Positions 1 through 14,850 of a stretch of DNA of 64,000 nucleotides are shown here, in pieces (position 1 is the stretch's first letter; each line of letters opens with the position of its first letter). The stretch covers positions 7,881,501-7,945,500 of the forward strand of contig OU015662.1 of the NCBI GenBank assembly GCA_907165275.2. Direction: 5' to 3'. This DNA comes from Zygaena filipendulae. Taxonomy: Eukaryota; Arthropoda; Insecta; Lepidoptera; Zygaenidae. A program made the translations under genes and the position numbers. Below the pieces are notes generated by a model that was not told the origin of the DNA, searched no databases, and saw only the letters and a program-made list of their open reading frames with translations.

Positions 1-1668
1 GTATTTTCTAGTACGATAGGGCTTAAATTAGCGTTTTAAAAATAATTTTAAAAACATGTGGGTTTACTAATTTTCTATTTGTTTTAGGTAAGTATAGTTT
101 TATAGATATAATATCCAAATCAAACAAAGGCATTACTTAACACCTGCTTAAATTATTATTTGGACATAGATAAGCAATAGTATGTTAACCCACACTGGAG
201 AAATTTTGAGTAAATCGTGTTTGAAAAGCAATAGCGCCATTTTTTGTCAACATTTTTTATGTTCAATAAATAATTCGTTAGTATTTAAACAATGTAATAA
301 GGTAAAAACATACCTAATTAAAAAACGTTCCATAACTCAATAAAGCGTTTTGTATCAATAACTTAATGATTTGGGTTAACATGTTATTGCTTATTGGCGT
401 CCATTTATGTATCAAGCAAAAATAAAACGGGCATAGTAAAAAATAAATATCGCGCGTGCCCGATAGAAAATTCCCGTGCACTCGACCGGAAAATAGCCGA
501 CATAAAGGTCTAGCATTCTGGTACTGACCGGGGACGTTCGCGATAAAACATTCTAGGATTCCGTCGGCGCATATTATGACGTAGCTACGTGTGTTTGTGT
601 GTCGATAAAATGTCAATGAATCACATTGGTTTCCAGAAAACGGAGTTGGAACATTTCTATTTATTTAGTAGCTTTACCTGGCGGGGTGCGTTGCAATACA
701 GTGTTTGGCTTTTTTGTTTTTCAAATCTTTCCTTGGCTTCATCTAAGTTTTACGGAACATTGATTTCCAAAAAAGGGAATAAGGGATCGAGAAGACAAAG
801 AATGAGAGGAAAAAGTAACCATCGGTTGCTGCAATTCTTTGATTTTTTGTTGTGTTGAATAAAACCTATCCCGGGGCGCGCACTTCAACCTAGCAAAGTT
901 CCGTCCCAAACGGACGAACGCGGTGGATACAGTAGGAGCGCATCGTTTTTACACCTTAATAAAAAGGTACGAGATTGAAAAATGTATTTTCGATACAAGT
1001 AAGTTTTGAAAATCACGTTATAATTTAATTAATTTGCTCACCGTCGCTCCGTTCTGAACATCGAAGCGTGAAACTCAGAGGCATAATATAGGTAAACAAA
1101 AGTACGCAACAAGGCGGCACACCGTCGTCGCGCGTCGGTCGAGCCGCATAGCGCCCTGTTGCCAGCATACAATTAATCTCAATTTCCCGCGCGCGCCAAA
1201 TCGCCGTCCTATTACGACCTCTGTTTTATTTCATTTATATACCAGCCGGATTAATGCGCCGCAAAGTTTACAAAAGCTATGAAAGAATCAGAAAAGAATG
1301 GTATTGAATGGAAAGAATTCTATGCCCCTTTCCTTTATGTTGGCTTGTGAAAAATGACTAGGTCCTTGTGCTACATATTATATATATTATATTATTCGTT
1401 GTGCATCGCTTTACACAATGAAATACCTACTGTTAATAATAACCTTTTGTGTAATTCTGGATTGACCGATTAACATTCATATTAATTTGACATCAAAACT
1501 TGGTCTATAAATCTAGGACTAGATGACGTGTTACATCGACACTGCCTTGAAGCAAAAATTACTATGGATCTATGCGATAACTTCCTTACCAACCATTACA
1601 ATATTATGTTACGAAATAAGATTTTGATTTTGGAAGTTCAGTTTTCAAATCGAGTATCGTTGTTTCAG
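1..1668. other. Flank or intron upstream of first visible cpo exon; no exon recognised
   Basis: No coding exon is supported here. The right edge is a pyrimidine-rich splice acceptor (tgtttcag, 1661-1668), so at least the right part is intron of couch potato. About 860-1250 is richer in CpG than its surroundings and could be a promoter or 5' UTR, but no TATA/initiator pair or start codon followed by a donor is visible. The upstream exons of cpo, including its start codon, must lie outside the window or be too short to recognise. Confidence 0.5.
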
Positions 1669-1746
1669 GTGCGAACATTGTTCGTGAGTGGACTACCAAT
1701 GGACGCGAAGCCTCGGGAGCTGTACTTACTATTTCGAGCATACGAG
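1669..1746 (+). CDS. cpo: cpo exon: start of RRM1
   Basis: Acceptor tgtttcag precedes 1669 and donor GTGAGC follows 1746. The exon is 78 nt, phase 0 at both ends, and encodes 26 residues starting [17 protein letters not shown] and ending FRAYE. LFVSGL is the RNP2 strand of the RRM. This is the most conserved block of the couch potato/RBPMS family. Confidence 0.95.
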
Positions 1747-4700
1747 GTGAGCAAATTGAAGTCAGTGCTATTTATTCGTCTTTGTGTTCTAAATTCAAAG
1801 CTACTGAATAAAATAAAAAAATAAAATAAAAGGTAAATCATTTCATTAGGTAAATCCATTCTAAGTACACACAAAATAGGGATGCCCAAATATTGACTAG
1901 ACGAAAATAATGTTCGATGCGAATATAGTTAAGACGATACTGTCACGTCGCTTCGGATATCCAGGTACGGATTACTACACCGTAAATATCAAATACCATG
2001 CTTCGATTCTTAATATTGGGATCGTATCGATTCTTTTTGCCGATAAGGGTGGGATTACACTCGATCCGACTGGCACGGATAGCGCCGCGCTCATAAAGGT
2101 GCCTTAAGTTGAACGAGGGTCGCAGTTTTAGCGTATCGCGTGTACCCAACCAGTGCCTGGCACCGAATTGCTCCTATTATTGGTAGATAACAGCGCTGTG
2201 TTCGAATATAATTTCATTCTTGCGTAATGACACAAATAATTGGAGTAATTTGATACGGTAAAATACTAACTACAGGATTTTGTTTAATAAATTCATAAGT
2301 GAAAAATGCGCATTGGAATGTCTTGCAAATATGGTCAAAAGCTTTGGAAAAAAAAACTCTTTTATTTTAAATACAGCATTAATTTTACAAATTAGATTAA
2401 AATAAAAAAAATTAAGGAGGTTGTAAGATTTGTCTTTTCTCTGTTCTCTTCTGTCTGTCTTTAAGGATGAAGAAAATATAAAAAAAAAATGGTTTTTTTG
2501 AACTTTTAAGATTCTTCAAAAAATTTGCATTTATTCAAAATTTGATTTTTCGTCTAAGTGATGGTTAACAATTGTAGTAGTTTTATTAATTAATGAACCT
2601 AGGGTGCGCCCAGATTACTTTTCCTTTTTTTTGTCATCGTGCATGTCAAATAAAATATTTGTTGTTTACGCAGGGCTATGAAGGATCCTTGTTAAAAGTC
2701 ACCAGCAAGAACGGGAAAACAGCTTCAGTGAGTGAAAATAATTCATTGTGTCGTTTTTTGTTATATTTGAAAGAAAGAAAGACAATGTTTATTAAATGCA
2801 ACCGTTTCCTTGCAGCCTGTGGGATTCGTAACTTTCCACACCAGAGCCGGAGCTGAGGCAGCCAAACAAGATCTTCAGGTTGGTATCATCACATGTTTAA
2901 CAATTAATGTAAAACACCCATATAATAATTACAATCCTTAATGATGCGACAAATAAAATAAATTGAGTTTGCTTCAAAATTAAGAACAAAGAATTTAAAT
3001 TTTACACGATAAATGTATACCTAATATTTTCTGCAGAAAGTAATCTTTTTAAGAGATTTGTTCCATTTAATAGAATAATCAATTTAATTAATAAGCTTGA
3101 AGCAGACTTGATCAAAGAAAGCGGAATTCAAAAGGGAATTAAAAAAATAATACAAAAAAATATAATATTAATCAATAAGATAAACGCATAACTTATACTC
3201 GTTACAAAGTAGTACTATTGAACACAGTATCTCTAACATTAGAAGGTTTTCACGTACACAAGCCTTATAAACGACAAGAATGGCTTTAAAACACTGATAT
3301 AATAAATCTCTGGAACAGACTGAGACACCTATATGGTGAAATGCATTAAATGCGCTATTGTAAATATATACGTACTAAAACATAATATATGTTAAAGCAC
3401 GGTGTTACTAAACCTCTTCTCATCACATGCCACGACACAGCCAACGAGCACTATATAGTAAATATATTCTCATTGTATGTACTCGTAGAGTTGAAATAAC
3501 ATTCTATCGACTCGAATAACCGCATCGTAGGTTATGCTAAACCCATGCACATATCTAATAAGCCACGTCGACTCGTCAAGTTAGCGCCGTTATCAGCTCT
3601 CTGACACCGGAGTGCGATCGATGATGATTTGTCACGGTGTAAATACGAGTAGACTACTGCATGTCACGGTTTGACAGGTTTTGATGTCACACCCCGAGCA
3701 CTGTGTTCCGTCACCCTCATGCAGGCGCAGGCGCGGATATCGGAGTCTTTACATATCTATTCCCACATCAATACCAAAAACCAAAGCTCGTCTGGTAACT
3801 GCGAAGACCAAAAAAACTCAAACTCGCACGAAAAGTGAAACTTTTATTTAAAAAAAGTGTTAAGTGTAACCTTGAATCACATCCCCCACGTCTAGTCGTT
3901 CGACCACAACTGCATAATGTATTTCTTACGAAATCTTGTACATATTATAAGGTAACGTAACAAAAAAAACGTGACAGCGTGCCCCAAGAAGTTTCATTTA
4001 CGTTTTAGAAGATATCGCAAGTCTAGGTCTGTTATAAAAAATATATTCGATTCATTCAATCCCCTAACTCATCGCGAATGACGACTGCCACCCTCAACGT
4101 CGCCAACGTGTGACTGGAGGTGCTGCGACGTCGCCGGAGCGTTCCATCGTCATTATATCGGAGCGCCGCACCGCTCGCGGCTGTTCACAGCAGGGTGTCC
4201 GGTTCGACCCCGACATGCCGCAAACGATTCGGCTGGAGTTCGCTAAAAGCAACACGAAGGTCAGCAAGCCGAAGCCGGCAGTTGCCACCGCCGCGCCAGC
4301 TGCACACCCCGCATTGATGCACCCACTCACTGGACGTAAGTACCGCCGACCGCACACACCGCCCGGCGCTCGCTCGATCACCATCGCTCCAAACCCAACC
4401 TCCCCCCCTCTACCCCCGCGCCGCCCGCTCCGACAGACACCACGGCCACACCGATGATCCCTACCGACTAGTGTAGGGTTGCCATCCCCTAACCAGGATT
4501 TCAAGGTGGAAATATCAGGACACTACAGCTTAAAACAGGACGCAGTATTAGAGATCATCAGTTATTTATATTATTATTATATTAGAAAACGGGGTCAATG
4601 AAACTCAATTACTTAATAGCAGTTACATTGTTTATGAAAATATCTTCCATTAACTGTATGATTGGAGGCAGAAGGGGCGCGTGAATTTTAAAACCAGGAA

Positions 4701-7700
4701 GCTTTAAAAAAAAAACCCAGAACTGACTCTACATAAGAATTATCCAGGGCGGGTGTCCTCGAGACACCTCAAACAACAGGCGAAATCCTGGGAAAACAGG
4801 ACGGTTGGCAACTCTAGACTAGTGTCTCATTACACTGGCTAGTGGCTAGTGAACACACTCACCTTTGTTTATCCTAGATTTGTGTGTCATCTTCAAACTT
4901 CACTGACGCGTGACGGGTGTCGAGCTAACGCTACGGGCAAGTATTTGTGATTGCTTACACGTACCACGCAAGGCCTAGCTCAACGAAGCTCTTGTACTCG
5001 TATTGATTGATCTTCCGGACTTTGCCACTGTCGTTATCTTTTGCATGTTTTCATGAGGATATAAAGAATTATTGGTTGTTGTTGCAAACCACGGACTTTG
5101 GTGAAAAATACAATGATTTACTAAATAATATTTATCCTCAATACAAATGCCCCATGGAAACATGTTAAAAGCACACTGTAAATAACTTGAATTCTAATTT
5201 TATAGCTGTATACTGATTTCACGATATTATAGTCTGTCAGCTATGCAATTCGATTTTAACAACAATATAAGTGCATACATAATAATACTCGTACATTTAT
5301 ATATTATCACAAAGCCTCATTATGAGGTCCTGATGTGAGTCGGCTACATGTTGTGTGATGGTCATTTATGCAGACTTAGCGAGTCCATTCTTCCCTGGCG
5401 GAGGCGCGGAGTTGTGGCACCACCCGCTGGCTTACGGCGGAGAGCTGCAGACTCTCTCCCACGGACTGGTGCACCCTGCTATCCACCCGCAGATGGCACC
5501 GGTCCGCTCCTACCTCTGACTAGCTGCCGCTGATAGGCCCCACCACGTAAGTTACTTATTTAATAACTAGCTGTCTTTAAATACCGAGGGGGACCACGGT
5601 TTCACCCTCGGTAATTTCGGAGTTCCCGCGGGAATTCCAGGATAAAATGTGATATAAACCTTCCTCGTGAATCACTCTATTTGTTGGTGAAAGCTGCATG
5701 AAAATACGTTGCGTAGTTTTAAAGATCTAAGCATACATAGGGACAGACAGACAGCGGGAAGCGACTTTGCTTTATATACGTACTACATAGTGAAGTATTC
5801 AAGTATAGGTATCTATTGCTTACTAAGTGCTTACAAAAGTATCTTAAATATTAATAATCGTACAGTGCTCTTCAAACTTGTTACTTACCCTTTGCAACCT
5901 TATTAATTAAGCAACTAGTAGTTGAATAGGTACCTACTACACGTCTACTTTAAATAAATAGTAAGCTATATATTGTATCCTGTAATAATATTATACATAC
6001 TATAAGTACGCTCATGATGACCGGATTCTCGCAGTAGGTCACTATGCCTATCCCCACTAATCAAGAGGCTCCGGGTTTGATTCCCGGTGGGGTTGGACTT
6101 TTTATGATGAACACAGGGTTCCACTTTCCTGGGCGTATTTATATAACTACTAGCTGTCCCCCGCGATTTCATCCGCGGTAATTTCGGAGTTCCCGCGGGA
6201 ATTGGGGGGAAAAGTTCTTTGTACCCCTGACAGTTGTTTACGGTGATAAGCAGTTTCCGCAATAATTCCAGAGTTCCCGCGGGAATTCCGGGATAAAAAC
6301 TATCCTATCTTTTAAGTCGGACCATATTAAAAATGGTTACAAAATTTTATCAAAATCCATTCAGTAGTTTCGGAGTCCATCGCGGACAAACAACGTGACA
6401 CGTGATTTATATATATTAAGATAGTGCAATATATTTATGTTGTAATATGTACTATGTAGTATACATATATACCACGTATTGTTTGGTTTTCACGACACAA
6501 GTTTATAGTTTAGTGTGGGATAAAGTAGATCTGTGTGTTGTGAAATGTTATTATTAATATTTATTGAGGGCCTTCCACAGTATTACTATAATAATACAAA
6601 GATACGTACTCTTATTTCAGACTTACCATACCAAACATTAGAACGGAAAGCTACAATATTATACAGAAACCGTAGGCACTTCAAGAATCCTGCTGCAATC
6701 AAATCCACTTATTATCCAATTAGCTGTTGCCTGCGGTTTCACACGCATGAGTTTAGGGATTCTCTTATGAACTCATTATTCCAGGATTCCAGACATACCT
6801 ACCTGTACAAAATATTTTATGTACTGTGTTGTTTTTTCCTCAATAAATATTGTCTACGTCTATGAAAAAATGATAGCGTCAATATATAATTTGTCATTGT
6901 ACAGACCCCCCTGACGTTGGGTGCTTGCGTGATGCCCGCGCCGGCGCTGGGCTCGCCGGGGGCGGCGGTGCCGACCCATGCGCCCGCGCCGCCGTCGCAC
7001 CCCGGGCACCCTGCGCACCCCGCGCACCCCGCACACCCCGCGCCGCCCTGCTCCACACTGTTCGTCGCTAACCTCGGACAGTTCGTCTCCGAACACGAGC
7101 TGAAGGAAATATTTAGCAGGTAGGACATTGAAGTTCTAAACACTGACATTGAAAGCTTTTGACTGGAATAATCGTTTGAAAAAAAAGTCATGATAAATGT
7201 TACCCACAGTAAATACTTACGATATAATTAGAGGCTAGATGAAGTTTCTTAAAGCTAGTATTTGACATGAGATAAAGTACATATACGCATTAAGCATTTA
7301 AATCAAAATAAAATAAAATAAATGTATTTTGCTAAAATAAAAAGATTAGTCTGTGAACTACTTCCAGTCGAAAACTGTTAAAAGCAATAAATGTCACAAA
7401 GCATGATTGCGCACTCTATGTTGGAAATCGATGAACTATGACGTACCGTATTAATTAGTAATTAATAAATTTATATTACTGGAATTAATTTAATAATGTA
7501 ATCCTGTTCTATTATATCACACAGTGCATGTAATGCTACCACAATATCGTCAATGTATCTACCTTTAGAATTGAGAAATTGACTGCTGAAAGTCTCATAC
7601 CAACTCTTTGAACTGTTTGCTTCAAATCAAACAAAACTACTCTTAACTTAATAATAATTAATAAATAATGTTTGTGTGAGATAAAAGAGCCCGCACCCGT

Positions 7701-9760
7701 TACACTAGCATGGCAGCCATATAATATTGTCACCTGTATTCACATTTTACACTTTGTTTGTACTAAGTACTTCACAAACACTATGTAGTTGTAGGCCGCA
7801 CTTCTATACTACACTTAGTATCATAAATAGACAGCATCTTCGGTCTAGTGGTCAAACTTTACTGCAGCTCCAGGTGTTGCAAGTTTGATCTCCGCGTCAG
7901 GGTGAATTCACCTGAAGAACATTTTTGTTTAAACCCAGTTTACACGGTTCCCATCCTATAACCATCCTATCCTTAATTTTTATTCAGTCCTAAACATAAT
8001 GCTTCTGTTTCCACTGTTTTCTGATGTGACCGAGTATTGCAGTGTTGCCACTTCTCTCTGTCAACTTCCACCACAGATATTCAAATATGGTATTATAGAA
8101 GTAGCAGACGGGATGGGGTGGGGTAATTTGCTTAGATTTTGGCAGAAATATATGCGAGACAAAAAGAAACAACGATTTTCGTAGTTAATAATTGTTTACT
8201 TTCTATTTTCTTTGAATAGAAAATACTAAGTAGTTTAATGAAAAACAAGATCACAATTACAATTTGGATATTTGTTTTGGAAATAGGTGACAACATCATC
8301 ACGAGATAAACAGTCAAAAATTTGGAATGCAATCGTTAATTAATCAGGCATCAATCAATGATTCCTAAAATCCCCTAATTCTAGCGACAATGCCCTTACT
8401 CGTTTTAGTCGACAATCTTTCACTCTTAACTTTATCCGACTTAGGATTCGTAAGTTCGAGGATGGAAGACTCGTCAAACATCCAATTATTAATTATAATA
8501 ATAATATATTTATAGAACCAATTGCCTTTTATAATATCTGATCTTAGACTTAGGATGGTGATGATAGAAACGTGTAAACAATCCTTTACCCTGAATCTGG
8601 ACATTTATTATGAATTAAATAACAAAAACGAATTAGGTACTTTTATTTAAGTTTTATAATATCAGTTCATACAAACTCCTACAAGTTCCATACAATTTCT
8701 ATTTAGTTAGCATTCTCCAGGTCCAAGTATTATTATAATAAATTTTATAACTGTGTCTCGTACTGCGTAATCGCACATCGAATGAAGTAATCCTTGATTT
8801 TAATATAAATGTACAGCTAAACTTCTTTTACTATTTCTTTGAAAAGATTGATACGCACTTCACCATTAATTTGAAAATAATTGGAAGTTTCTTGATGCAT
8901 TAACACCGTAAAAACATAAAATTTTAAGAATAGCGCCACTTTCACTGCTACATGAATCTCAACTCGATGTCGTTACTATCTTGTATTTAGTCGTATTTAG
9001 ATCAATGAGAGACCAAAACGGTAAAGACCAAGGAGCATTAGATACCTAGTACCTACCTAGCATACAGAACACACATATAGGAACTGCTTGCGGGTGTACA
9101 CTGTGAGGGTGTGGGCACAACTTGAGTGTGGTGGTAACAGTTGCCCGGGGTTCACTCGACTGCGGCTCCTGAGCAGTGGCAACGGCGGCAGCAGCGCTCC
9201 GGTGGCGTTCGTCGACTTCGCTAGCCCGACGGACGCGGGCGGGGCGCTCGCCCGCCTGCAGGGCGCGCTGCTCCTCAGCTCGGAGGGAGCTATACACCTC
9301 GAATACGCGAGGCACAACTTGGCACACAACGGCTGGATTCTCGCGCACGAAGTATGCACGCGCACACATTTACTGCGGTGGCGTGACACAGATTCAATCC
9401 AATCCGAAATGACTGAAAATAATATGATGAGAATCTACAAAAATCCTCAGGATTATTTTTGTCAAAAACAGTTCATCTATATAACATGTGATAAAATTAG
9501 CTGCAAATATTTTCAGAGTTGAAAGTACCGTTATAAACATGTTCATAAAATAAATGTTATTTTTCTCATATTCTGAAAAACTACCGAACTTATAATATTA
9601 TTTTTTCGCTTATCCTAGTTGATATAACCCTACTTTCAGCCCTGTAAATATTTGCAGTTAATTTTACCACATGTTATAATATCAATTCGTGTATTTTTTT
9701 TTTATAATTTGATAAAACAAAGTTTATTTTTGTATTTTTATTCAGTGTCCAAAAGGTTGA
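1669..9760 (+). CDS. cpo: couch potato / RBPMS / mec-8 type RNA-binding protein, 3' part of gene (multi-exon)
   Basis: Seven exons assemble in one frame: 1669-1746, 2674-2727, 2816-2878, 4194-4335, 5374-5546, 6905-7119 and 9141-9351, with a possible eighth at 9746. They encode RRM1 (RNP2 LFVSGL, RNP1 PVGFVTFH, ending [10 protein letters not shown]), a tail with PFFPGG and ELWHHPL, a TGA at 5517-5519, a Pro/Ala/His linker and RRM2 (RNP2 LFVANL, RNP1 PVAFVDFA). RBPMS-family proteins bind CAC-containing RNA, usually as dimers through the RRM. Drosophila couch potato is a nuclear protein of the nervous system linked to diapause variation; two RRMs are known in C. elegans MEC-8. Up to the TGA the visible part is 160 residues; beyond it 151 more codons stay open through 9351. 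The N-terminus and promoter are not in the window. Family identity is near certain; the use of RRM2 by readthrough is inference. Confidence 0.93.
1747..2673 (+). other. cpo intron, no gene seen
   Basis: This 927-bp AT-rich intron runs from GTGAGC at 1747 to tttacgcag at 2665-2673. I see no repeat with clear ends and no coding exon; open frames in it show no family motif. Confidence 0.7.
2674..2727 (+). CDS. cpo: cpo exon: RRM1 loop and strand 2
   Basis: The 54-nt exon encodes [18 protein letters not shown], phase 0 at both ends, between tttacgcag and GTGAGT. It joins FRAYE to PVGFVTFH exactly as in the RBPMS family, where this segment lies just before RNP1. Confidence 0.94.
2816..2878 (+). 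CDS. cpo: cpo exon: RRM1 RNP1 and helix 2
   Basis: The 63-nt exon encodes 21 residues, PVGFVTFH followed by [13 protein letters not shown], between acceptor ttccttgcag and donor GTTGGT. RNP1 with its two aromatic residues (GFVTF) is intact. The intron before it is only 88 bp. Confidence 0.94.
2879..4190 (+). other. cpo intron, no gene seen
   Basis: AT-rich intron of about 1.3 kb. The stretch 3540-3760 is somewhat more CpG-rich but shows no exon with family motifs. No terminal repeats or SINE boxes were recognised. Confidence 0.6.
4194..4335 (+). CDS. cpo: cpo exon: end of RRM1 and Ala/Pro linker
   Basis: The exon encodes [18 protein letters not shown] and continues [10 protein letters not shown], an Ala-rich stretch and [10 protein letters not shown]. 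It ends one base into a codon before GTAAGT. The last beta strand of RRM1 (TIRLEFAK) is here. The acceptor is a tandem CAG CAG (4188-4193), so the exon may begin at 4191 (adding Gln) or 4194; RBPMS spacing between the AEAAK helix and G-I/V-RFDP fits 4194. The next exon supplies the two bases that complete the codon (His). Confidence 0.94.
4474..4816. mobile_element. 343-bp hAT-type MITE in a cpo intron
   Basis: The element starts tagggttgcca and ends tggcaactcta (inverted copies with one mismatch). It is flanked by a perfect 8-bp direct repeat gactagtg at 4466-4473 and 4817-4824. An 8-bp duplication with short inverted ends is the mark of hAT transposases acting on a non-autonomous element. 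There is no coding capacity. A related end, tagggttgccac, occurs at 53554. Confidence 0.85.
5374..5546 (+). CDS. cpo: cpo exon with TGA-CTAG stop and open 9-codon extension to a donor
   Basis: Acceptor tttatgcag precedes 5374 and the first two bases complete a His codon. The exon reads [18 protein letters not shown], then through [16 protein letters not shown] to VRSYL and TGA at 5517-5519. The stop is followed by CTAGC. After it the same frame continues LAAADRPHH and reaches donor GTAAGT at 5547 in phase 0. No consensus GTRAG donor lies between the exon start and the TGA. So either this is the terminal coding exon of a short isoform with a 27-nt tail, or TGA is read through into the RRM2 exons. 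The amino-acid tail is family-like in both readings. Confidence 0.9.
5517..5523 (+). promoter_or_regulatory. cpo: Candidate programmed stop-codon readthrough site (UGA CUAG)
   Basis: TGA followed directly by CTAG matches the UGA-CUAG context known to give efficient readthrough in animal mRNAs. The downstream frame stays open through a phase-0 splice to exon 6905-7119, which encodes the start of a real RRM. The context and open frame are seen directly; actual readthrough is inferred. Confidence 0.7.
5566..5782 (+). repeat. CTAGCTGT/GGGAATTCC family copy
   Basis: Starts actagctgt, has the core aatttcggagttcccgcggg and ends in a purine-rich gacagacagacagc stretch before gactttgctttatatac. It lies in the cpo intron after the TGA exon. 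Confidence 0.75.
6012..6148 (+). repeat. tRNA-derived SINE fragment
   Basis: Contains a B-box-like ccgggtttgattcccggtg at about 6068-6087 with an A-box-like stretch some 50 bp before it. It runs directly into a CTAGCTGT family copy. It is not a functional tRNA: no cloverleaf closes around it. Confidence 0.5.
6149..6422 (+). repeat. CTAGCTGT family copy, core repeated twice
   Basis: Starts ctagctgtcccccgcg. The core agagttcccgcgggaatt occurs twice (near 6185 and 6270), suggesting an internal duplication or two partial copies, and it ends near the ttatatatattaagat stretch. Confidence 0.75.
6905..7119 (+). CDS. cpo: cpo exon: Pro/Ala/His linker and start of RRM2
   Basis: Acceptor cattgtacag precedes 6905. 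The frame (phase 0) reads [18 protein letters not shown], then a low-complexity linker with [17 protein letters not shown], then [18 protein letters not shown] and KEIFS. LFVANL is an RNP2 motif. It ends agcag before GTAGGA, two bases into a codon. The linker shows a short GC-rich tandem repeat. The phase fits only a join from the end of the TGA exon (5546); joining exon 4194-4335 directly would put it out of frame. Confidence 0.9.
7120..9140 (+). other. cpo intron with one SINE-like fragment
   Basis: A 2-kb intron between GTAGGA and ggtggtaacag. Apart from a tRNA-like SINE at about 7838-7975 I see no exon or element with clear ends; open frames here are AT-rich without motifs. Confidence 0.6.
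7838..7975 (+). repeat. tRNA-derived SINE
   Basis: A-box-like tctagtggtcaaa and B-box-like gttgcaagtttgatctcc about 35 bp apart, followed by the SINE body tgaattcacctgaagaac. This is the usual head of a lepidopteran tRNA-type SINE. Confidence 0.55.
9141..9351 (+). CDS. cpo: cpo exon: rest of RRM2
   Basis: The first base completes a Ser codon from the previous exon. The frame then reads [19 protein letters not shown], then [18 protein letters not shown] (RNP1 PVAFVDFA) and ends the RRM with [15 protein letters not shown] donor GTATGC follows 9351 in phase 0 (GAA|GTATGC). If it is not used, the frame runs on to a stop at 9520-9522. The GC-rich body stands out from the AT-rich intron, as expected for a constrained exon. 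Confidence 0.9.
9352..9554 (+). CDS. cpo: Alternative 3' extension of cpo RRM2 exon with polyA signal
   Basis: If the 9352 donor is skipped the frame stays open for 56 more codons to a stop at 9520-9522. AATAAA follows at 9549-9554, only 27 nt downstream. This is the layout of a composite terminal exon made by intronic polyadenylation. The added residues show no recognised motif. Confidence 0.4.
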
Positions 9761-9816
9761 TGACTGCTGAAGAAAAGCAGCGTCTTTCACTGTTTAATGC
9801 TTGTGGGTCGATATAA
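9746..9816 (+). CDS. cpo: Possible terminal exon of cpo
   Basis: A strong acceptor (long T-rich tract ending tttattcag) precedes 9746. Joined in phase 0 to 9351 it gives four residues, CPKG, and a stop at 9758. In another frame it would read [20 protein letters not shown] to a stop at 9814-9816, but no upstream donor of the required phase is visible. The 3' UTR would then run towards AATAAA at 10548-10553. Confidence 0.35.
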
Positions 9817-12800
9817 TTAAATTGAAACTGTGTTATGTCAATATTCGCAAACTTTGAATCTCACACGAATTCAATATTACGATTTACGATACATTATCGA
9901 CAAACGCAAATTGCATTCGCTGTCTGTTATTTAAAGGGTTCCGAAGCTATTTTATTTAATGTTAATAATAATTGTCACCTTGCACAGTGCACCATAGTAA
10001 TTTTTATTTTGCTTGCGTATTGTAACATTACTGTATCATCTGTTGAAAGTTTTCGTTCTAATTTTGGATTTGTTTAATTTCCCTAACAGGGAGCCAAAGG
10101 GGGAGAAGAGAGCGAACAGCATTAGTTCGCTCGTGGCTCTCGGCACTTGACAACCAGCCAACTGAGGGATGCGCAATCTTGATCCTATGTACCGCTTCGT
10201 AACAGTACCATCCGGTGATGGAGCAAACTTCTACTGCTACAACGCATGTTACAACTAAGGCGATCAAGATTATCAATATGGACAACCCGCAACCACCCGA
10301 TATTATTTAATCTGACAGGAGCGTCGGAGGCTTTCATCTTTCCAGCCTATCAAGTTTTTTTACGTCAGCAGGTGTGGTGTTTTTTTTTATACCAAATTTA
10401 CCATATATTAAGATATTTTGTATTATTATTAACATTCCAGTTTTATTGTTTACCGTTCACAACAATTAATATTATTTATAGAATTTAAAATATTGATTTA
10501 ATAATATATATTCGATTTGTTTGTTTAAAATTATTTTCGATGTAAGTAATAAAGAATTTATTTATATGTTCAATAACCTATTGTATGGGACAAGTTTGTA
10601 TATCAGTTTGTACAAGACCGATGTATACAATATAATCGTGAGGATTTGTTATGAATTATAGTAAATAACCAGAAATTAATAACATTTTAGGATAATATCA
10701 CATTCGATTAAGCTAAAAACCAAAGGTGCCCTTCATAGAAAGATTACGTTTTGTTAAATGATATTTCAAGTTAAATCATTTTAAATAAAGTTGTATGTAA
10801 TAATTACAATACTTTTGTTTTAGCCTCGATAATGTTAGCGTTTTTTAAAATGAATTTCATTAATAATTATTGAAATTATATTTACCTGATACTTTCTTAG
10901 TGATTTTTATAATGTTCAATCACTCGTTAAAGCGCTGGCACTCTAGTGTTGGTCTTACGATCCTTTCTATCTGTAAATGTAACTATTGCAATAATAATAA
11001 TTATGAAGATTTTACTGTGAGTGTGATGCGAGATGTCGGCTCGCCCCTCGGTGCCGCTTGTTGTGACGTGCAATACAATCCTGGACTGCAACGGAGACTG
11101 GTGTCGTGTGGTCCTGCAACAATCCCCACTAAACTTCGATAACTCTACATAGAAACTTTTTGTGTAACAACTAAGTATTCATTTCTATGTGCCTTGCTCG
11201 TTTCTCTTTTTCTCTCTCTTTTGCCTTATTTTAAACCCGTATTTTCTATGTTCAGATGTCACTTTATCTATCCAAATTCTTTTTAACATGTTAGAGGTAA
11301 GTAATGTATGACCGCTCGATACTGCAGTCTTCGAGAACGTTCAGTCTTGTTGCGAGAATTTAGCCTTGGCCTTATGAGAGTTAAGTAATTAAATGTAATC
11401 AATATATTAAATATTATTAGTTGTAATGAATTAAATGGCGACATGCGCGCCGACGCTGATTAGTGAATCAATTATTCTACTACATATTTGCATGCTTTGA
11501 CGAGCTTTTTGGTAATAATCTAATTTAAAACTTAGTAGTTACTTTATGTATAATCTTTAGGTAACAACATAAAAGTTAGATAAGGGTATTTATTGTAGAG
11601 AATCAGCATAGTTACATTACTATTTAATGAAAAATATATTCATACATAATAATGAAACAATGTAATGATATTTAAATTTACTGAAGTGGTAGGATTAATC
11701 GAAATTAATGAATAATAATATATTTTTTATTTTAGTTGACTATCGCATTCAAGAGTAATTAGTTACCTACTTCTTAAAATGTTTTGATGGAACGCGATCG
11801 CGTTAAAAGTACCTACACATCAGTGCGAGGTAGCAATAAACCAAATATAAAATCTTAATGTTAAATATATATTATCTAGTAACGTATTTTGCTGATGAAA
11901 TAATAAATAATATGTAAAATTTTATGAAAATGTAAAAAAAATATCCTTGCTTTAGGCTATAATAAATAAGGTTTTGATATATTTGGGTTACAATCTTGAC
12001 GCGACAGAAATCTATTGTGGTATCCACGGGGCCCGCTGTGGTCGGTGGCCAGAGTTTCCGCATGTGAATTCTTATGAAAATCTCTTAGTCAATATTATAT
12101 TTAATAGAAATAGAAATTTCGTCAATTTTTGACTTAGCAAAATTTTATACGTTATATTTTATAGTGACTGTGACATTCAAACTGAACCGAGCGATGTTGC
12201 GTAGGTACCTATATAGACCAAAGATAAAGGTTAATGATAATAATACATAATTTTTAAAAATACTAACCTCAGACAGTACCAAATTCGTAAACGTAGGCAC
12301 ACTTTGACTGGAAATAATGGTTTTTGTTACAGCACAATCAAATTGATAGGTATAAAATTGAACAAAATATCAATATCACTTACCATTCAAATAAAAATTT
12401 AATTTATTGTATGTTAACTCGACAAATCTCGGTTTTTCTTATATACCTATCTATTTATAATTCATTGTCAGTTTTAATAATTAAGCTAAGTCAATGTTTA
12501 CTTATTTATTTCTATATAAAAACTAATTCTTAGGTAGATATATAAGTGATTATGTAATAAAGTAGTGATCTCCCATACCTTCGGCGTTCGGCATCCTCGA
12601 TGTAACATGAAAAATACAACGAATTTTTTTGTTGTTTTGTCGATCGGTTCGATGACTCTAAAGAGTGATAATAAAACTATGCTCTCTTTCACAATTATCT
12701 CTACCATGATCTGAAGAAAAATAAAACTTGACTTTATAGACATCGAACAGTCTGAAGTGATTTGATTTGTTATTAGTTTAACGGTAAACATCAACAGCCA

Positions 12801-14850
12801 TTTTGTGTGCGATACACAAAATGGCGGCCACAAGGGATGCCGACGCCGCCATGATTCCGTCCAACAACCGTAGATAGCGAGTAAGAGACGTCCAGTGGCT
12901 GCGGACACGGCTACGTCACCGTTTGCGGGACTACTCGATACATATCAATGTGTAATATTAAATGTGTATTAATTAGAAATAAAGTACGGTTTCATAGAGA
13001 CGTTTATTCTGTGCTGTTTCTTATCTACTACTTGTAATGCAAACAGCTAAATGTCACGCTATTTTATATTTTACCTAACGTTGTTTAATAACGATATCGT
13101 TAAGTTTTGTTTCAGGGGTATCTATACAATCTTATATAATTTAATTTTAAGTAATGTAATATTATATCAATTTATATTTAAATTTTCAAAGTACCTACCT
13201 ATTATAGGAGGATTTCATTTTAAGCATAGATATTGATTTTCGCGAAAAAGGCGTATAACATAATAAATTAACGATCACTGTGAAATCGGATAGGTTACCT
13301 AGTGTTTGAAAGGTCGTCAATAGTAAAAGGTATGAAATTAGCCCGCATGTGATAGGGTAGTATAGGGGTAGCATCGCCTTGCAAGTTAGGTTAAGTATGC
13401 GGTATCACACAAACGCCGTACATCGGAACATATCAATTCTGTGCCCCTAAATTTAGTTAAAATAATTATCTAAGAGATACATATAAAATAGAATAAAAAA
13501 GAGAAAATAATCTTTTGGATAAACAAATAAATACTGAATGTCGATTTAAGCTGAAAAGTAAATATCGTGATTTTAAAAAATAATTTTATTAAACGAGTAG
13601 TGTCGCGCAAGTTTCCTTTTTTAATATAAAATGTTTAATAATAATTTACTAAAAACATAATTTTGAATATTAATTTTAGACTTACAGTAAATTAAAAATA
13701 TTTTATGGCTTATATTACCAAATTAATTTTAACAGTTCGCTTCGAGTTCAGTATTAAAGTACTTGTTTAAATTATATTTGAGGTGACAATTTAGTGTTAC
13801 CGTTATAATATTTATTATTTGTATATCGAGCAAAGTAAATCATACAAAAACGTAGTTAGTAATTAATTGTTAGAATTGTGTGACTTGAATCATTATAAAG
13901 CTTCTAGAGCAGACGGTAAAGTGTTATTGTGGTTTAAGATGAAAAAAAAAAACAACATAATGACATTGTAAAAATAGTGATAAATTTAGCTTAATTATCA
14001 TATTATAACTTTTATAGATGTTCATTAATTTTCTTTTCTAACTTCATGGAGTATTGTGGTATTGGAGACGTCATTGTTAATTCAAATAAATTTGAGCCCA
14101 TCCTCAAACGAAGTTTTTATTCAACTCCCTCTCCTAGAGGTCGTATTACGTAATGAAATCGTTATGGTACGTATACCTGATAATGACGAATCTTAGAACG
14201 TTGTAGCTAGTAAGAAGATAAAGTTCTACTTACAAATAATTTTTGGACACGTCGATAATTTATTGACATACCTACTTATTTGATCTTTGTTGAATGCTTG
14301 TTACAAATTGCAATTTGTTATTTTTTGCAATAGACATCAATGTTTTGTTAATATTTTGTTAATATCTATCTATAGTATTTATAAAAAGATAGTAAGTACT
14401 AAATCATAGGTGTCTAGTTTAGGATAAAAGAAAATAGATATAATTTACAGTTGAGCTTGAAACTTTGCTTTGTAGAGTTTTCTGCTTAGCACGTACATAC
14501 ATATTTTCTTGTAAGGTCAATATATACAGTTTAAACAAGTATATGCCTATTTTAACACTATGGCAACTTTAAAATTGACGTTACAATGTGGATGTGTTAC
14601 CTTACTTACCTACTTATATTAATAAAATTGCAAATAATAATTATCTAATTGTCTCCTGATTTCAATAATTAATTGATAAACTTACTGCGGTGTTGTATTT
14701 TATGTTATTATTAGTTTTAAAGCATTATAGGGTCCAAAGATTGGGAATAAACTTGTGAAAAATAATTTAACTGTTTGTTTTTTTATTTTTAAATATATTT
14801 GCTATAGGTACCCACTCAAAGTTACTGCGCGTTTACTTCAAGATATTTTT
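9817..14850. other. Gene-poor AT-rich stretch; GC-richer hairpin block near 10.1 kb
   Basis: No coding gene is supported. The block 10085-10330 is GC-richer and contains an 8-bp perfect stem gagcgaac/gttcgctc (10110-10117 with 10125-10132), itself enclosed by gagcca/tggctc. It could be a structured 3' UTR of cpo, since AATAAA occurs at 10548. The rest (10.6-14.8 kb) shows no SINE heads, no terminal repeats with duplications and no ORF with recognisable motifs. Confidence 0.5.
10548..10553 (+). promoter_or_regulatory. cpo: Candidate distal polyA signal of cpo
   Basis: AATAAA in an AT-rich context, about 790 bp downstream of the possible terminal exon. Position only; no transcript evidence. 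Confidence 0.3.

Follow-up and report, generated by a model that had tools for sequence, protein, structure and literature searches.

A candidate readthrough stop codon between two putative alternative splice donors in the couch potato gene of Zygaena filipendulae

The window analysed here, a 64,000-nucleotide stretch of Zygaena filipendulae DNA, carries on its + strand the couch potato (cpo) gene, which in insects corresponds to RBPMS and MEC-8. Between the two RRMs of this gene, the leaky stop context UGA-CUAG is found at window positions 5517–5523. With moderate confidence, we propose that this UGA is read through on mRNAs spliced at a strong donor downstream of it, alongside a second route in which a weak upstream donor bypasses the stop. 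More tentatively, at a little under an even chance, we suggest that the readthrough stop predates the split of the main insect orders and acts as a translational switch for the ratio of one- to two-RRM protein on mRNAs of the strong donor, parallel to the splice bypass and easily overlooked because an intron breaks the second frame.

In the proposed mechanism, an old, leaky UGA would lie between two 5' splice sites that compete within a single exon. Use of donor 1, with 5501 as the last exonic base, would remove VRSYL-UGA and yield a two-RRM protein without readthrough. Use of donor 2 (5546) would retain UGA-CUAG and yield a one-RRM protein terminating in VRSYL. Ribosomes that passed the UGA on the donor 2 mRNA would make a two-RRM protein with about 15 more linker residues.

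Gene layout and the stop exon

The exons and signals of the gene are collected in Table 1. Both RRMs are recognised by the Pfam model RRM_1, with 45.4 bits upstream of the stop and 50.0 bits downstream of it (cut-off 20.7). According to the part of PMC4150794 that deals with the family of RBPMS/RBPMS2, couch potato and MEC-8, its RRM1 dimer motif is D-x-K-x-R-E-L-Y-L-L-F; this motif is present in exon 1669–1746. Downstream of the stop, the second-ranked match of RRM2 is a solved chain of MEC-8 (6dg0, E 6.3e-12), while the top match, nucleolin 9cb5 (E 1.3e-14), is a sum over several weak RRM stretches. Set beside the RBPMS/RBPMS2/CPO/MEC-8 proteins as treated in that part of PMC4150794, the window gene shares the RRM1 motif and has a MEC-8-like RRM2. 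Exon 5374–5546 has one match in a DNA search of the 366-Mb assembly.

Table 1. Exons, donors and stop of cpo in the window
Feature	Position	Strand	Remark
cpo exon, RRM1 start	1669..1746	+	further 5' exons lie outside the traced set
cpo exon, RRM1	2674..2727	+	
cpo exon, RRM1	2816..2878	+	
cpo exon, RRM1 end and start of tail	4194..4335	+	one base over, phase 1
cpo stop exon	5374..5546	+	VRSYL, TGA, nine post-stop codons
Donor 1 (putative), GTCCGC	5502..5507	+	after CCG (5499-5501); weak, phase 0; would remove VRSYL-TGA
TGA stop	5517..5519	+	followed by CTAG (5520-5523)
Nine in-frame post-stop codons	5520..5546	+	LAAADRPHH
Donor 2, GTAAGT	5547..5552	+	after CAC; strong, phase 0; TGA retained
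Linker and first half of RRM2	6905..7119	+	opens in phase 0; LFVANL
Second half of RRM2	9141..9351	+	PVAFVDFA ... LEYAR
Last coding exon, two-RRM form	10090..10125	+	GAKGGEESEQH, then TAG

The stop exon is entered at the acceptor GCAG/AC and left at the donor CAC/GTAAGT (slashes mark junctions here and below). The frame arriving from exon 4194–4335 reads VRSYL-TGA-CTAG and then continues through nine open codons (CTA GCT GCC GCT GAT AGG CCC CAC CAC) up to the GTAAGT of donor 2. The junction of donor 2 with exon 6905 is in phase 0 and places RRM2 in frame past the stop. UGA-CUAG is described as a readthrough trigger in the relevant text of PMC5100048, which cites Loughran 2014 for it. A sequence-only reading of the window had pointed to the stop in its CTAG context, the nine open codons and the phase-0 GTAAGT donor, all of which are confirmed in the sequence. 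Its further observation of a linker and a true RRM that start in phase 0 at 6905 holds as well, with a Pfam RRM_1 score of 50.0 bits for the RRM. Its argument that the phase of exon 4194–4335 forbids skipping of exon 5374–5546 also holds, as skipping that exon shifts the frame of the downstream exons.

The same reading had noted that no consensus donor lies ahead of the TGA. Taken to the letter this is correct, yet there are weak GT sites in phase 0 at 5468 and 5501, and the site at 5501 is the one used in most lepidopteran models. Scored with a weight matrix, the phase-0 donors reach 2.2 bits at 5468, 1.5 bits at 5501 and 8.3 bits at 5546.

Splice routes to RRM2 in relatives

A query with the joined protein against 5.8 billion proteins gave 1459 matches among 7990 scored candidates, the best 120 of which were listed; the protein set analysed here comprises 143 retrieved proteins. 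It contains 33 lepidopteran proteins, 30 assigned by source name and three (P0050, P0053, P0121) by similarity. The join HPQMAP/[TS]PLTL, equivalent to an exit at base 5501 and hence to donor 1, is found in 23/33 of these lepidopteran cpo proteins, which are mostly gene models and thus biased towards donor 1, as predictors cannot write an internal stop. Two further proteins (2/33) have a donor 1-like join with five or four additional residues: in P0008 (Choristoneura) and P0024 (Operophtera), YLNGQ or FSYQ stands between MAP and [TS]PLTL, which suggests an acceptor 12–15 bases upstream of the usual one.

The other lepidopteran proteins follow different routes. Three (P0016, P0018 and P0021, from Arctia, Mythimna and Pieris) show the join ...PHH/TPLTL, which looks like use of donor 2, with the stop missed through an apparent extra intron. 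The AAADRPHH of the Arctia protein P0016 is identical to that of the window, and P0018 and P0021 share PHH. Another three of the 33 (P0050, P0052, P0053) are one-RRM proteins terminating in VRSYL. The remaining two are P0040, which is without the tail, and P0121, a genomic-looking call that begins ahead of RRM2.

The first 121 proteins also include 88 that were not assigned to the Lepidoptera. The tail is left without VRSYL at HPQ(x)P in 55 of these and at HAQ(V/L)P in 20; 12 match neither exit pattern, and one (P0066) has RSYL. Additional residues at the join are present in some of the 55 HPQ(x)P proteins, for example P0029, P0060 and P0070. The UniRef records of P0086 (Clastoptera) and P0092 (Lygus) have no contig attached, and we take both to be transcriptome entries.

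Donor 1 is likely to be used despite its weak score, since the identical cut recurs in annotations across many species and submitters. For Zygaena filipendulae itself, we infer its use from the protein models of relatives (MAP/TPLTL) rather than from its own reads. RRM2 can thus probably be reached without passing the stop, and with donor 1 in play readthrough would not be needed for RRM2. The earlier claim that the stop is the only way to RRM2 does not stand against these 23 proteins cut at 5501 and the two of near form: another donor that keeps RRM2 in frame is found at the protein level, mostly in gene models.

These routes raise the alternative that the two 5' splice sites alone account for the data. 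Donor 1 would then give two RRMs, and donor 2 a single RRM followed by a 3' UTR made of the RRM2 exons; the stop would be a normal terminator, and conservation past it would reflect splicing signals. The donor 1 or near join in 25/33 lepidopteran proteins argues for this explanation, as do the one-RRM proteins that end in VRSYL (P0050, P0052, P0053). We consider it unlikely, albeit a serious contender, for reasons that lie in the sequence past the stop: the UGA-CUAG context in the window and, in relatives, the features described below.

In three beetle proteins (P0080, P0103, P0127), the stretch L[QH]QAGAPVHHH is conserved at the HPQVP/ join. Either the post-stop sequence of beetles or an acceptor that has been extended may account for it.

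Tryptophan at the stop position and conservation past it

P0066 was found with the joined-protein query. Its junction, used as a query in turn, gave 118 candidates, of which 25 proteins reached E <= 0.1. RSYL-W occurs in 14/143 retrieved proteins, a number that reflects queries spanning the stop region (13 of the 14 came via the W-L query) and the requirement of an open frame; the next residue is L in 14/14. Thirteen of the 14 are unnamed genomic or transcript contigs translated into introns, and one is apparently spliced. Twelve run to V-S, which is the phase-0 reading of GTNAGY; the donor of P0125, which extends as far as V-M-S, is uncertain, and P0066 continues to the RRM2 exon.

P0066 is a 278-aa call from a 1855-base JGI contig and reads HPQVPVRSYL-W-LSADKALEPPTSAPMH/APMSLPHP. 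It is probably a spliced cDNA, as it has no introns where the window gene has five. At its junction, the post-stop donor is joined to RRM2 in frame.

The post-stop stretch takes several forms among the RSYL-W proteins, whose order labels were assigned by similarity. It reads WLSADKALEPPTSAPMH in three hymenopteran-like proteins, WLSGDKQESVADAPYHH in P0125, WLG[ED]EKP[EQ]E[AT]H in P0128 and P0140, and WLNP[ED]K... in eight dipteran-like proteins. The distance from the stop to the in-phase donor or junction is 9, 10, 11, 12, 13 or 16 codons; as translation shows phase-0 donors only, the kept phase is partly ascertained, and is supportive rather than a test.

The intronic parts of the RSYL-W calls contain 53 W and 58 C, a parity that departs from TGG-only W with p values of 6e-7, 1.5e-5 and 1.7e-4 at a G+C of 0.35, 0.40 and 0.45, respectively. 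Near-equal numbers of the two residues would be expected if TGA were called as W. We infer that TGA, and with it CTAG, would lie beneath W-L in other insect orders. The named hymenopteran models P0124 (Ampulex) and P0126 (Temnothorax) bypass the spot, which suggests that a stop is present there. No cpo DNA of other insects was found in viral_contigs or genome_contigs; seven pattern matches to cpo in viral_contigs were rejected on account of unrelated flanks.

The eight dipteran-like sequences show an identity of 1.00 in the 17 residues that precede the stop, 0.76 in the eight codons that come next after it and 0.09 in 13 post-donor residues. One hymenopteran-like pair has an identity of 1.00 post-stop and 0.38 post-donor, and the pair P0128/P0140 has 0.70 and 0.38. 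Open frame, phase-0 donor and conserved post-stop peptide together suggest that readthrough at this stop has a long history in insects and is subject to selection. Against the explanation by splicing alone stand the residues conserved in the RRM2 frame from the Leu right after the stop, and an open frame that leads to an in-phase donor-like site at several post-stop lengths, an argument that is partly ascertained. It gains, in turn, from a negative substitution test: residue changes in the eight dipteran-like stretches are no more conservative than single-base changes would produce (mean BLOSUM62 -0.12 vs -0.34, p 0.33), a result that also counts against readthrough. The stop readthrough claimed by the sequence-only reading becomes more plausible through the recurrence of the post-stop open frame, Leu, phase-0 donor and conserved residues in contigs of other insects and through the join in P0066.

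A third way to obtain the same peptide would be a 23-base microexon, 5524–5546, with CTAG/ as its acceptor. Splicing from 4335 to 5524 and from 5546 to 6905 would lose 5374–5523 and require no readthrough. The phases fit, and the 17 bases ahead of the TAG are 76% pyrimidine, compared with 41–71% for the acceptors in the gene model, eight in all. P0016 joins G/AAADRPHH, consistent with entry at this point, and P0124 (Ampulex) enters similarly past the stop; both, however, are annotations obliged to avoid a stop. Moreover, with this acceptor the L-N-P that is conserved right after the stop in the eight dipteran-like sequences would become intronic, and P0066, an apparent spliced cDNA, retains VRSYL-W-L. 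We therefore regard a microexon as improbable.

The W called in the cDNA-like P0066 could also point to recoding of the UGA, either by A-to-I editing to UGG (Trp) or as selenocysteine. The W in contigs is explained by TGA called as W. As to editing, the A of the UGA has a 5' G neighbour, a context that ADAR disfavours. As to selenocysteine, an Rfam search of window 1–14000, with a collection that includes SECIS models, gave no family at the cut-off, and to our knowledge selenoprotein machinery is absent from the Lepidoptera studied. Recoding of either kind is thus very improbable.

Other signals were searched for in the RNA and the surrounding DNA. The spliced post-stop RNA is no more stable than its shuffles, with z scores of +0.49 for 90 bases and +0.90 for 120 bases against a baseline of approximate dinucleotide shuffles, which likewise counts against readthrough. 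A tRNA search of the window gave none. Intron 5547–6904 contains two AATAAA on the + strand (5953 and 6842), in a window that has 311 on both strands vs 189 expected, and these sites are not informative as poly(A) evidence.

Known systems and nearby observations

The number of RRMs differs among CPO proteins, from one in some to two, as in MEC-8, in others, a difference that is called surprising in the part of PMC4150794 concerned with it. The origin of the one- and two-RRM forms goes unmentioned in that part of the paper; in the window gene, a UGA with leaky surroundings lies between a putative weak donor and a strong one. C. elegans MEC-8 has two RRMs, the second of the type present in the window (6dg0). 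It is described with tandem RRMs, and the portion of the description that covers them mentions no stop between the two. The cpo gene has been studied for diapause and neural function, as the relevant section of PMC5012703 sets out.

Readthrough of stop codons is an established phenomenon in insects, as the relevant text of PMC5100048 makes clear. The conserved Drosophila/Anopheles readthrough described in that text has in common with the window gene UGA-CUAG and an open second frame, which here is conserved at the protein level. It differs in that the second frame of the window gene crosses a junction after nine codons and would add a folded domain, and in that a second splice route would also bypass the stop. 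Candidates were generally ascribed to alternative splicing, in the same text, if their second frame had an exon break and a non-coding score before the break. What is unusual in the case proposed here is that readthrough across an exon junction would add a whole domain while splicing bypasses the same stop. If the UGA is read through, RRM number would be set by translation as well as by splicing, possibly in many insects, and readthrough screens that interpret exon breaks as splicing could miss cases in which a domain is added. The first Drosophila readthrough list is reportedly that of Jungreis in 2011, and cpo may already figure in it.

Among the papers searched, none joins couch potato or cpo with readthrough, or couch potato with 'second RRM'. 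Neither PMC5100048 nor PMC3840789 has the word 'cpo' or 'couch' in its main text.

Two further observations concern the neighbourhood of the stop exon and the end of the gene. Skipping of exon 9141–9351, from 7119 to 10090–10150, puts the last exon into its other frame, which reads EIFSR-EPKGEKRANSISSLVALGT-stop and leaves RRM2 truncated. P0023, P0025 and P0026 terminate in much the same way, so Lepidoptera apparently read the last exon in two frames. Related stretches lie in the intron that follows the stop exon, at about 5567–5660 and 6154–6300 (ctagctgt... ggtaatttcggagttcccgcgggaatt...), the first of which begins about 20 bases past donor 2. Judged by eye, the two stretches look like copies of one interspersed repeat.
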